From Chloroflexota bacterium (GTDB lineage Bacteria; Chloroflexota; UBA11872; VXOZ01): a DNA stretch of 64,000 bases. Positions within the stretch are counted from its first letter, which is position 1. Every line of letters begins with the position of its first letter. Below are positions 50,186 through 57,106 of this stretch, in pieces. The notes below the pieces were generated by a model. The model saw only the letters and a program-made list of their open reading frames with translations, did not search any database and was not told the origin of the DNA. The position numbers were made by a program, and so were the translations under genes. The stretch is from the NCBI GenBank assembly GCA_026710945.1, contig JAPOQA010000067.1, positions 1-64,000 of the forward strand, read 5' to 3'.

Positions 50186-50406
50186 ACCTCGGCACGTGAA
50201 AGTCGCGTGTCCAATGGTCGCTTTGCTGTTTGAGTGAGTCCACCAAATGACTTGTGGCGTTTTCGCACACCTTTCCCGCCGGTTACATATCTGGAATCAC
50301 GGTCCCTGCTTGGGCACCGGGTATACTAGAGTCCGAATCGTGGTCGGATGCACGCAGGCGTTTCCGCCAGCAACTCATCTGCGGACAGTATTTGGGAAAT
50401 TGAGCT

Positions 50407-51246
50407 GTGACAATTCTCAATGAGTTTCTTCTCTACCTCCGAGACTACCTACCTTCATTGGTGGGGGCGTTGGTCATTGCCCTCGTTGGCTGGTTCGGCT
50501 CTTACTGGGTCAAGCGCAGCGTGGACGGTCTGGTTACTCGAGTGGGATGGGATGAGATCACGTGGGGCTATGTGAGCACGCTTGCCCGGTACTTCTTCCT
50601 GGCAATCATGCTTACGGCAGCGCTGAAGCAGATTGGGTTTCCCATTGAGTCGTTCCTGGTGTCGGTCGGCATTACCGGGATCATCATCGGCATGGGCGCT
50701 CGGCGGTCCATTGCGAATTACTTCGCCGGACTGATGATGCTGGGAGCCAAGCCCTTCGGCAAGGGCGACCTTATCGAGTTTGGTCCGCCGCAGCAAATCG
50801 GCTTCGTAACGCACGTGAACCTCAGCTACACTGGGCTGCTTACCCTGGATAATGCGCGCATCGTTGTGCCGAACGGTGTGCTTTGGCGAAATAAGATAAT
50901 CAACCACTCGAGTTATGACATGCGCGTGCTGCAAATTCCCCTGGCCGCCTCCTACGAGGTGGACCTGGATTGGGTGAAAGACATCGCATTGGACAAGCTG
51001 CAGAACCACCCCGCAATCCTGGACGATCCGGCACCGCGTTTCAAGATGCTCGAGGTGTCGGCAGACGAAGAACGGGCCCAACTGCTTGGCTGGACAGCTT
51101 CGAAGTCCGTAAACCTTTACGGTGAACTCATCACCGAACTGCGCCAAGAGTTCGCCGACGCCGGCCTGACGGTAACGATACCAGCTAAAGATGTGAGCCT
51201 CACGGGCGAGGAATACCAATGGCTAAAGAGGTACAGCACTCCCTAG
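50407..51246 (+). CDS. mscS: MscS-family mechanosensitive channel
   Basis: A 279-residue channel. Three N-terminal helices (LPSLVGALVIALVGWFGSYW, YFFLAIMLTAALKQIGFPIE and VSVGITGIIIGMGARRSIAN) are followed by the pore-lining and beta domain GLMMLGAKPFGKGDLIEFGP, then the conserved NARIVVPNGVLWRNKIINHS and the alpha-beta C-terminal vestibule. It opens under membrane tension and protects against hypo-osmotic shock. The GTG start is used. The final 28 bp overlap the next gene, in a different frame. Confidence 0.9.
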   Translation: MTILNEFLLYLRDYLPSLVGALVIALVGWFGSYWVKRSVDGLVTRVGWDEITWGYVSTLARYFFLAIMLTAALKQIGFPIESFLVSVGITGIIIGMGARRSIANYFAGLMMLGAKPFGKGDLIEFGPPQQIGFVTHVNLSYTGLLTLDNARIVVPNGVLWRNKIINHSSYDMRVLQIPLAASYEVDLDWVKDIALDKLQNHPAILDDPAPRFKMLEVSADEERAQLLGWTASKSVNLYGELITELRQEFADAGLTVTIPAKDVSLTGEEYQWLKRYSTP

Positions 51247-52685
51247 AGCACTCGACAGAGCAAACTGCTGCCAAGAGTCGGCGGGCAGCAGCAACTATGG
51301 GCGTTGAGAACGTAATGGCGCGGCTCTCACTGAGCCGTTCTCGCGTCTATCGCCTCATCAAAGATGGCGTGCTTAAGGCGAACAAGAGTGATGCGGTGCT
51401 GACGTTTCAGGAAGATGACGTTGCGGCGGCCGCCGGCGAGCTTGCGGGTAGGCGCCAGAATGCGGAAACCCTTGTCCGTATCTTCACGGATCGCCTTGCC
51501 GAGCATGGCATTGTCGATCTGCCCGAGATTGACATTGCAGACGACGAAGCCGGCTCAAAGGAAGCGGTGAAGAGGCTGTTGCTCGATTGCATGGCGGCGC
51601 AAGCGAGCGACTTCTATGTGAACCTGACAGCAAGCGGTGACAAGCTCTTAGTGCGCACTTTGGGTCGCATCCACGAAGTTGCGCGCGTGGAATGCGAGCT
51701 TGGTGACCGCCTGAAGACAGAACTCAAGGCGCTTGCATCACTCCCCAATGATGGCGCCGGCGTCTCCAGTGTAGCTATCTTCAGGCACGCGGACGAGAAT
51801 TATTCGGCGCAGATACGACTGAGCGTCGTGCCAAGTCATGCCGGCGAACGGCTCCACCTCCAATTCTTCCATGTCGGTGCGGCGCAGACCCTTGCGGATA
51901 TTGGCTATACAGCAGAGCAGTGCAAGGCCTTGCGCCGCTTGCTGGTGGGGAAGCCCGGCCTATTCGTGCTTACGGGTAGCCACTATCGCGTAGTGCAAGA
52001 GCATCGTCTGGCCCTGGCACAATACTTGGAATTACAGGGGAAGCTCGTGGCATCCATTGATGGATTTTCCAACTACCAGTCCGAAAACACCGTGCACATT
52101 AATAGCAGAGAGGCCGAAAACACTGACGATGCCGGCCCATGGCAGATGGCCATGGGCCTATGCCCGGATGTAATCTTGCTGGATGACGTCCAAGACTCCA
52201 CTGAGATGGAATCTGTTGAGGCCGCGTTGTCCGCTGGCATTACAGTCTTCGTCCAGGTGCAGAGAGCTTCAATTCGAGCTGCCCTTGAATACCTTGCAGG
52301 GCTTGGCTTGGAGCAATGCGAACGCTCTCCTTATTTTCTTGCCGCCAGCGAGTTCATTGTCTTGCCAAGGTTATGTCCGGACTGCCGGGAGCCGCGTGCC
52401 ATGGCATCAGACGAGGTTGAACTCCTGCGTGCCTCTGCCGGGGCGCAGCTTTACAGGGCGGCTGGTTGCAACAAGTGCGAAGGAGGATATCGGGGCAGCC
52501 GCACCGTCTGGGGACTGCTCTCCGGCGATAGTGCGCGCGATACAGGCTCGCACCCTGGAGACCCCCTACAGTCCAAGGAAGGTAGTAAAATTCCTCCGTG
52601 CGACACTCTACTGCCCACAGCACTGCGCAGCGCAGTACTGGCGGGGGAAGTGGCGTTCGAGCACGTCAACCTTCACCTCAAGTAG
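51219..52685 (+). CDS. Degenerate PilB/GspE-like protein with N-terminal HTH and no Walker A lysine
   Basis: A 488-residue protein that overlaps mscS by 28 bp. Residues about 27-72 (MGVENVMARLSLSRSRVYRL) form an excisionase/MerR-like helix-turn-helix. From about 125 the order of blocks follows PilB/GspE secretion ATPases: ASDFYVNLTASGDKLLVRTL, then RLSVVPSHAGERLHLQFF. The Walker A position reads LFVLTGSHYRVVQEHR, with no GxxxxGKS. The Walker B position is DVILLDDVQD (317-326), and a Zn-binding tetracysteine CPDC (386-389) and CNKC (417-420) follows. It therefore looks like a pseudo-ATPase fused to a DNA-binding domain. ATG with GAGGA upstream. No pilus gene is nearby. Confidence 0.78.
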   Translation: MAKEVQHSLEHSTEQTAAKSRRAAATMGVENVMARLSLSRSRVYRLIKDGVLKANKSDAVLTFQEDDVAAAAGELAGRRQNAETLVRIFTDRLAEHGIVDLPEIDIADDEAGSKEAVKRLLLDCMAAQASDFYVNLTASGDKLLVRTLGRIHEVARVECELGDRLKTELKALASLPNDGAGVSSVAIFRHADENYSAQIRLSVVPSHAGERLHLQFFHVGAAQTLADIGYTAEQCKALRRLLVGKPGLFVLTGSHYRVVQEHRLALAQYLELQGKLVASIDGFSNYQSENTVHINSREAENTDDAGPWQMAMGLCPDVILLDDVQDSTEMESVEAALSAGITVFVQVQRASIRAALEYLAGLGLEQCERSPYFLAASEFIVLPRLCPDCREPRAMASDEVELLRASAGAQLYRAAGCNKCEGGYRGSRTVWGLLSGDSARDTGSHPGDPLQSKEGSKIPPCDTLLPTALRSAVLAGEVAFEHVNLHLK

Positions 52686-52842
52686 AAGGCCGAGCGGGCG
52701 CCGTTGCCAATTGTGCCTCGTCTGAGCAGCACTGCGACTAAGCGTATCGCCGCACTCGCGTGGTACCATACCCCCTGCACACGGCTGGAAAGCGCGCCGT
52801 TTTGAACGCGGCGCGATTTCGTTTGTAGAGGGCGGGAACCAC

Positions 52843-54156
52843 GTGCAGACGACCCAAGACGCGATGGCGGTGACCGGCTATTTCCAGGCGTTGCGGCTCT
52901 TCAACCGCAACGTGCGGATCTTCATTCTCAGCGCGCTGCTCCTCGGGTTCGCCTTCTTCGGCATCTATGCCGTGCTCCTCAATCTCTACCTGCTCCGCCT
53001 CGGGTATGGGCCTACGGTCGTTGGGTTGATAAACGGCATGGGCTTTGTAGCGTACGCCGTGTTCAGCATACCGGCGGGCGCTTTAGGGGCGCGCTTTGGC
53101 ACGCGGCGCATGCTGCAGGTGGGTTTCGTGCTCGCCGCCTTGGGCACGGGCTTGCTCCCCGCCGCGCAATTCCTGGAAGGTACTCTGCAGGTGGCGTGGA
53201 TTGCCGTCACGTATACTGTCACCTCCATGGGGCTCGACGCCTATTTCGTGAACAGCAATCCGTTCATGCTGCAGTCCACGACTCCCCGCGAGCGCATGTA
53301 CCTTTATTCTCTGCGGGTCGGCATGAGCCCTATAGCAGCTTTTGTCGGTGCTCTGGTCGGTGGCTTTCTGCCGGGGACGTTGGCGAGACTGCTGCCCATC
53401 ACCGACACGGCCTCATTCGCGTTGGCGTTGCTGGTGGCGGCGGTCGCCTTGCTCGTCGGCGTCGTAGCGCTCTTAAATACCACCGCGACTGCGTCACTCA
53501 CTCAAGACCCAGAGCCGCCAGTGCGCACGAGCAGGTCCGCGTCGGGTCTGCCGATTCTCATCATCACGATGATGGGCTTGGTCATCATGCTGCGTATCGC
53601 ATCTGAGGGAGCCCAGCGCACGTTTTTCAACGTCTATCTAGATGAGATCTTGGCGATGCCCACGGCGCAGATCGGGATGTTGGCCGCGGTCGGGCAGCTT
53701 GTAGGCGGCTTTGCTGCTCTCATGTCACCCTTTCTTGCGCGGCGGTGGGGTCTTGAGCCAGTAATCGTGTGGGCTAGCCTGGGCATGGCGCTGAGCACCG
53801 TGGCATTTGCGCTCACCCCGCATTGGGCCGGCGCGGCGGTAGGCTACGCGGGGCTGGTCAGCTTTACGTACATTCAGCGCCCGTGCAGCTTGCGCCACAC
53901 GATGGAAGTCGTGCCCGCGCGCTGGCGGGAGACTGCCGCCGGTGTCGCCAACATGGTGGCGGGAATCGGCTGGGGCACCATGGGGTTCGCCGGCGGCTAC
54001 CTGGTAGGCATCTACGGCTATCAGAGCTTCTTTTTGGCGAGCGCGGCTCTGACCGGCGTTAGCGCTGTAATCTTCTTATGGTATTTTGGCTTGCCGAGCC
54101 GTGCTCAATCGAGAAGGCAGGGCGCCGGTGCGCGAGAGAATAACTCAAATGGGTGA
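52843..54156 (+). CDS. MFS transporter
   Basis: A 437-residue protein with about 12 helices, beginning FILSALLLGFAFFGIYAVLL. The first-half MFS loop motif is visible as GALGARFGTRRMLQVGFVLA, and the second half has AALMSPFLARRWGLEPVIVW. Substrate is not deducible. A GTG start with GGGCGGG upstream is chosen. Confidence 0.9.
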   Translation: MQTTQDAMAVTGYFQALRLFNRNVRIFILSALLLGFAFFGIYAVLLNLYLLRLGYGPTVVGLINGMGFVAYAVFSIPAGALGARFGTRRMLQVGFVLAALGTGLLPAAQFLEGTLQVAWIAVTYTVTSMGLDAYFVNSNPFMLQSTTPRERMYLYSLRVGMSPIAAFVGALVGGFLPGTLARLLPITDTASFALALLVAAVALLVGVVALLNTTATASLTQDPEPPVRTSRSASGLPILIITMMGLVIMLRIASEGAQRTFFNVYLDEILAMPTAQIGMLAAVGQLVGGFAALMSPFLARRWGLEPVIVWASLGMALSTVAFALTPHWAGAAVGYAGLVSFTYIQRPCSLRHTMEVVPARWRETAAGVANMVAGIGWGTMGFAGGYLVGIYGYQSFFLASAALTGVSAVIFLWYFGLPSRAQSRRQGAGARENNSNG

Positions 54157-56972: not shown

Positions 56973-57106
56973 CGGTAGCGCAGGTTACGCGCACGGAACG
57001 TGCGAACCTGCGTCTGCTGCTGACTTGGTCGCAGGTCCAATTGCCTTGGCGGGGGACAAGCCCCCGCGCTACGTTAATGCGACACCATTGGGGTTTGTCC
57101 CCCGCC
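56973..57106. repeat. Composite repeat module, second copy
   Basis: cggtagcgcaggttacgcgc ... cgaacctgcg (56973-57012), then ggcgggggacaagcccccgc gctac (57048-57072), then acaccattgggg (57082-57093). The order and spacing follow the module at 31437-31551. The rest of 56718-57161 has no recognised gene. Confidence 0.7.

Follow-up and report, generated by a model that had tools for sequence, protein, structure and literature searches.

What could be the function of a protein that has the body of a secretion or pilus motor, a predicted DNA-binding head and none of the nucleotide-binding motifs of its family, and whose gene overlaps that of a mechanosensitive channel? This question is raised by a gene pair in a 64,000-nucleotide stretch of a Chloroflexota contig (the whole stretch is here called the window), where mscS is followed by an open reading frame that starts with ATG and encodes 488 amino acids (Table 1). 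The GspE/PilB family of motors is regarded as consisting of obligate ATPases that work in membrane machines, and an earlier note on this DNA had proposed that the frame, here called the pseudo-ATPase gene, specifies a catalytically dead member of this family that is fused to a helix-turn-helix (HTH) and linked to mscS.

Table 1. Features of the mscS/pseudo-ATPase locus (positions in the window)
Feature	Position	Strand	Basis
Conserved element GTATACTAGAGTCCGA upstream of mscS; TGNTAGAGT-like candidate extended -10 or operator	50321..50336	+	shared 9-mer
mscS, small-conductance mechanosensitive channel family, 279 aa	50407..51246	+	MS_channel_2nd E=2e-14; NCBIfam
28-bp overlap, end of mscS and start of HTH/pseudo-ATPase gene	51219..51246	+	same length in 4 species
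HTH-fused Walker-A-less GspE/PilB-like protein, 488 aa	51219..52685	+	profile matches, orthologues, dN/dS
MerR/excisionase-type winged helix-turn-helix, residues 27-69	51297..51425	+	HTH_17, AF2, Foldseek, conservation
Long helix after wing, residues 65-95, possible dimerisation helix (predicted role)	51411..51503	+	AF2 models
N2-type domain of GspE/PilB, residues 109-220, family R200 and G209-E210 retained	51543..51878	+	Pfam, AF2 model, conservation
Walker A position, here GSHYRVVQE, residues 253-261	51975..52001	+	alignment with P-loop-bearing relatives
Asp box position, EDPxEY replaced by DGFSNY, residues 281-286	52059..52076	+	alignment
Walker B position, CPDVILLDDVQD, residues 315-326	52161..52196	+	alignment
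His box position, residues 340-348, both His lost	52236..52262	+	alignment
Tetracysteine (zinc) site CPDC...CNKC, residues 386-420	52374..52478	+	alignment

The assignment of the protein to the GspE/PilB family is based on profile and structural matches. Its T2SSE (PF00437) match in Pfam covers residues 109-435 (E=2.1e-17, 63.3 bits against a cut-off of 24.9) and is present in 4/4 orthologues, while NCBIfam GspE/PilB models also match, with scores far under their equivalog cut-offs. GspE, PilB and PilF represent the nearest solved structures, and GspE and PilB are likewise the best PDB matches of a whole-protein AlphaFold model, which is of low confidence (pLDDT 57, from a shallow alignment). 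GspE/PulE of type II secretion systems (T2SS) and PilB/PilF of type IV pili (T4P) are thus the best matches of the window protein in both sequence and fold, and it shares with them the block order from N2 to the C-terminal domain, the tetracysteine zinc site and the C-terminal tail. It differs from them in that it is devoid of any nucleotide motif, in that a winged HTH of the MerR/excisionase type replaces the usual N-terminal (N1/MshEN) domain, in that its gene adjoins mscS, and in that the genome lacks a T2SSF platform. A frameshift, which the earlier note had named as a way in which its reading could fail, or an assembly artefact was ruled out by an identical open frame in four separate assemblies.

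Alignment with 29 intact Chloroflexota relatives, which were picked by a P-loop regular expression and therefore display the appearance of intact members rather than their frequency, returned GPTG(S/A)GKTT at the P-loop position in 29/29 cases; four further phylum or class matches that failed this expression still possessed GK[ST]. At the same position the window protein and its three orthologues read GSHYRVVQE, GSHYRVVQE, GSHDRIVQQ and GSDERTMQP, the Walker A motif GxxxxGK[ST] being lost in all four orthologues that cover the site. The Asp box, the Walker B glutamate and the His box are lost in 5/5 clade members, including a C-terminal fragment from another family of the class (G020); the catalytic glutamate column of Walker B reads D, G, R, W or T in the clade, and neither this glutamate nor the arginine directly after it survives in any clade member covering the site. 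All four nucleotide motifs are consequently absent from every orthologue covering them, with no orthologue bearing an intact GxxxxGKS at the P-loop position, which supports the catalytically dead PilB/GspE fold that had been claimed.

C386, C389, C417 and C420 of the tetracysteine site are all retained in 5/5 clade members, the G020 fragment included, as are the fold glycines in the alignment with the 29 P-loop-bearing relatives. Among 124 positions that are near-invariant in the active set, 22 are unchanged in the clade and 102 are changed, and D322, W308, Q346, R263 and Q260 are invariant in the clade where active enzymes are near-invariant for other residues. Since several changed positions are invariant for another residue, the clade represents a family with constraints of its own.

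The N-terminal region was assigned to the MerR/excisionase type by several lines of evidence. HTH_17 matches residues 27-69 of the window protein below the curated Pfam cut-off (E=0.0011; 19.6 bits against 27), and the match occurs in 4/4 orthologues, with a best E of 2e-4. An AF2 model of residues 22-110 (89 residues; pLDDT 82, and about 80-89 for the winged HTH itself) shows two helices and a hairpin wing followed by a helix of 30 residues, and matches the winged-HTH fold of BldC, phage Xis, RacA, SoxR and GlnR in Foldseek. The matches to BldC, Xis and RacA superpose at 1.1-2.7 A, with target TM scores of 0.64-0.80 and probabilities near 1.0; the Foldseek E-values are weak (about 0.02 or worse, up to 0.15), and values of 0.03 or more are expected for so small a domain. 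Run against PDB sequences, the HTH profile returned chance matches only. Across distant pairs the HTH is the best conserved domain, at 65-78% identity versus 46-57% for the two motor domains. The N-terminal HTH of the earlier note is thus borne out by the weak profile matches in all four orthologues, by its presence in the AlphaFold model and by the Foldseek matches to BldC, RacA, Xis and SoxR. MerR/excisionase-type proteins share the arrangement of two helices, a hairpin wing and a further helix; however, they carry a small effector domain or a coiled coil, whereas the HTH of the window is joined to an entire dead secretion-ATPase body.

No T2SSF/PilC platform was found in the six genomes of the genus, while controls and other Chloroflexota were positive, and no other T2SSE protein above the cut-off was found in the genus. 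On these grounds a component of a T2SS, T4P or Tad system was ruled out. It is therefore very unlikely that the protein takes part in building pili or in type II secretion in these cells, and what is left is recruitment of the fold to a different function.

Among 61 relatives, orthologues are present in three other species of the genus (G005 at 88%, G001 at 49% and G002 at about 48% identity). The G020 fragment, from a different family of the same class, spans 220 amino acids at 45% identity and is cut by a contig edge, and no orthologue was found in the remaining class members examined. A match in G022, at 36% identity, was rejected as due to chance; in L012 its position is antisense to reading frames that can be annotated as oxidoreductase-like. 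In a sample of 400 Chloroflexota genomes the other matches were T2SSE regions aligning from residue 82 or later, plus two HTH-only matches; the T2SSE relatives inspected for motifs in this sample carry GK[ST], and no HTH-fused or P-loop-less relative was found elsewhere in it. A search of 110 genomes of the class with the HTH model returned a single stand-alone frame of 246 amino acids. No relative was found among viral contigs, and a viral origin was accordingly rejected; on plasmids the best 30 matches are ordinary GspE proteins only, none of which spans the HTH (28 of these 30 start near query residue 100-117, and one at 66). The carriers are a small group of uncultured Chloroflexota. In the literature searched, whose coverage was incomplete, nothing relevant was found on HTH-GspE fusions, on dead GspE/PilB proteins, on P-loop-less GspE/PilB proteins with an HTH or on regulators in MscS operons, nor any paper describing a partner of the pseudo-ATPase type that overlaps mscS.

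Substitution patterns indicate that the gene is maintained. Its pairwise dN/dS is 0.22-0.34 by NG86, and up to 0.59 by YN00 for the closest pair, against 0.06-0.12 for mscS (NG86). In many comparisons dS is above 1 and only a rough value. The gene changes at several times the rate of mscS. The 137 base differences between the window and G005 produce 61 amino-acid changes, where 91.7 +/- 4.8 are expected under neutrality, and random placement of 137 changes created a stop in 912 of 1000 simulations. No stop or frameshift occurs in the gene in four species, at dS above 1. Judged by these comparisons, the gene is under purifying selection and not in decay.

The upstream partner gene encodes an ordinary channel of the MscS type, 279 amino acids long (E=1e-27 to the NCBIfam MscS subfamily model, under the model cut-off), with 87-88% identity in G001 and G002; it is unlike other MscS channels in being overlapped by the pseudo-ATPase gene. 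The overlap of 28 bp includes the mscS stop and is identical in length in all four species that possess both genes, and GAGGAA lies just upstream of the pseudo-ATPase ATG in each of them. In two congeners, G003 and G004, the flanking genes (a TIM-barrel, sugar-isomerase-like gene and an MFS gene) adjoin in the absence of both mscS and the pseudo-ATPase gene, and no remnant of either was detectable in the gaps. G003 and G005 share 90-94% DNA identity over the MFS gene and beyond, and the pair is present in G005 only. The two genes are therefore present or absent as one block, through at least one event and probably two; as such events are few, the linkage is well supported, though not overwhelmingly so. 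The linkage to mscS that the earlier note had suggested is in this way upheld by the constant overlap in four species and the joint absence in two congeners. It is seen within one genus only, the gene upstream of the G020 fragment being out of view at the contig edge.

The G005 MFS gene is 98.4% identical to that of G003 and only 86% to that of the window (50407-54156 region), while the G005 mscS/pseudo-ATPase block is, unlike that MFS gene, nearest to the window; these mixed affinities at 50407-54156 may be read as a sign of recombination. In addition, a 58-bp stretch at about 57048-57105 recurs at 91% identity in an unrelated place, upstream of a PhyH gene in G003, and is probably a dispersed repeat.

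A short element precedes mscS. The 9-mer CTAGAGTCC recurs at a corresponding distance in three species, although the rest of the intergenic region has diverged. It is the longest word shared upstream of mscS; none of 2000 Markov-shuffled sets contained one longer than 8. The exact 16-mer pattern of the element occurs once per genome, only upstream of mscS, and at two mismatches a search for a regulon returned no excess over the reversed pattern. The element is a probable promoter of the two-gene unit, in which CTAGAGTCC may act as an extended -10, as an operator or in both roles. Beside it, at 50332-50355, lies an inverted repeat, TCCGA-N7-TCGGA, both arms of which change in G001 to give TCCAA-N7-TTGGA; the repeat is absent in G002, and no inverted repeat occurs in all three. 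Strong conservation across six species marks the MFS promoter region on the downstream side (52760-52860), which includes GCGTGGTACCAT (TGG-TACCAT, like an extended -10) and a GCGCCG...CGCGGCGC inverted repeat.

The reading that we favour, with about even confidence, is that of a domesticated pseudo-ATPase that acts as an oligomeric DNA-binding partner of the mscS unit, probably as its regulator or autoregulator. An ancestral secretion motor of the GspE/PilB type would have ceased to bind and hydrolyse ATP, and a winged HTH of the MerR/excisionase type and a long helix take the place of the N1/MshEN domain. In the genus, mscS and the pseudo-ATPase gene would form one transcriptional and translational unit, and the partner would be made in a fixed ratio with MscS. 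The retained N2 and C-terminal fold with its zinc site would serve as an oligomerisation scaffold that gathers several HTH heads, and the protein would bind DNA, with the mscS promoter region as the plainest candidate (autoregulation being the simplest proposal), and once bound would set the channel level in response to some input; we infer oligomerisation, DNA binding, the location of the operator and the effect on mscS. In Myxococcus, mutation of the PilB Walker A motif altered exopolysaccharide output separately from pili (PMC11656802), which provides a precedent for this family acting beyond its motor role. A more ambitious form of the favoured reading, in which the motor body without its ATPase has been turned into an oligomeric transcription factor that either controls the mechanosensitive channel or is physically coupled to it, and so links membrane tension with gene expression, is put forward tentatively and is doubtful. 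Against regulation stand the possibility that the upstream element is a core promoter only, the sub-cut-off HTH_17 score, the weak Foldseek E-values and the low pLDDT of the full-length model, together with linkage in a single genus and the faster evolution relative to mscS.

The same overlap and joint gain and loss would also fit a non-regulatory partner acting together with the channel, namely an adaptor or tether in the cytoplasm whose old motor domain contacts MscS or the membrane nearby and whose HTH holds DNA, as a RacA-like anchor. Among the structural matches of the HTH, RacA ranks with the best, and the inner membrane is the normal workplace of the GspE/PilB family (PMC11656802). No membrane-binding or MscS-contacting feature was found in the protein, however, and we consider this tether unlikely. 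MscS normally assembles from seven subunits and the motor fold from six, so that symmetric docking is not obvious. Were the protein instead an autonomous DNA binder (a repressor or nucleoid-type factor) with targets elsewhere and mscS merely a convenient neighbour, the superior conservation of the HTH would be accommodated, and the upstream element, which has no inverted repeat common to the three species, need not be its site; the constant overlap and the joint presence and absence with mscS speak against such independence, which we regard as rather improbable.

A further possibility, that mscS is merely accompanied by what is left of a secretion ATPase in decay or under near-neutral evolution, would be in keeping with a dN/dS above that of mscS, with the 102 altered positions and with loss of the gene in some congeners. 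Yet frames free of stops and frameshifts at such divergence, significant constraint, invariants peculiar to the clade, the preserved cysteines and a related fragment in another family all argue against decay, and we hold a relic to be very unlikely. Polar residues invariant in the clade at the old site (S254, R257, Q260, R263, D281 and D322) could suggest that nucleotide is bound after all, in a rebuilt non-canonical site; with the Walker A lysine and serine/threonine, the catalytic glutamate, the Asp box aspartate and both His box histidines all absent, this is extremely unlikely.

HTH_17 may occur on some intact GspE-like proteins of other phyla, a consideration that bears on the newness of the fusion and leaves the dead active site and the mscS linkage unaffected. 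By its sequence the protein belongs to a known fold family, of which the P-loop loss combined with the HTH fusion appears to be a new form with a predicted function. A conserved, dead GspE/PilB member with a DNA-binding head, in a genome devoid of the corresponding machine, would be a clear case of motor-fold takeover, and the gene pair offers a concrete means to ask whether MscS channels can be regulated by a dedicated operon partner. If the more ambitious reading is true, the protein would represent a new kind of bacterial regulator, built from the body of a secretion or pilus motor.
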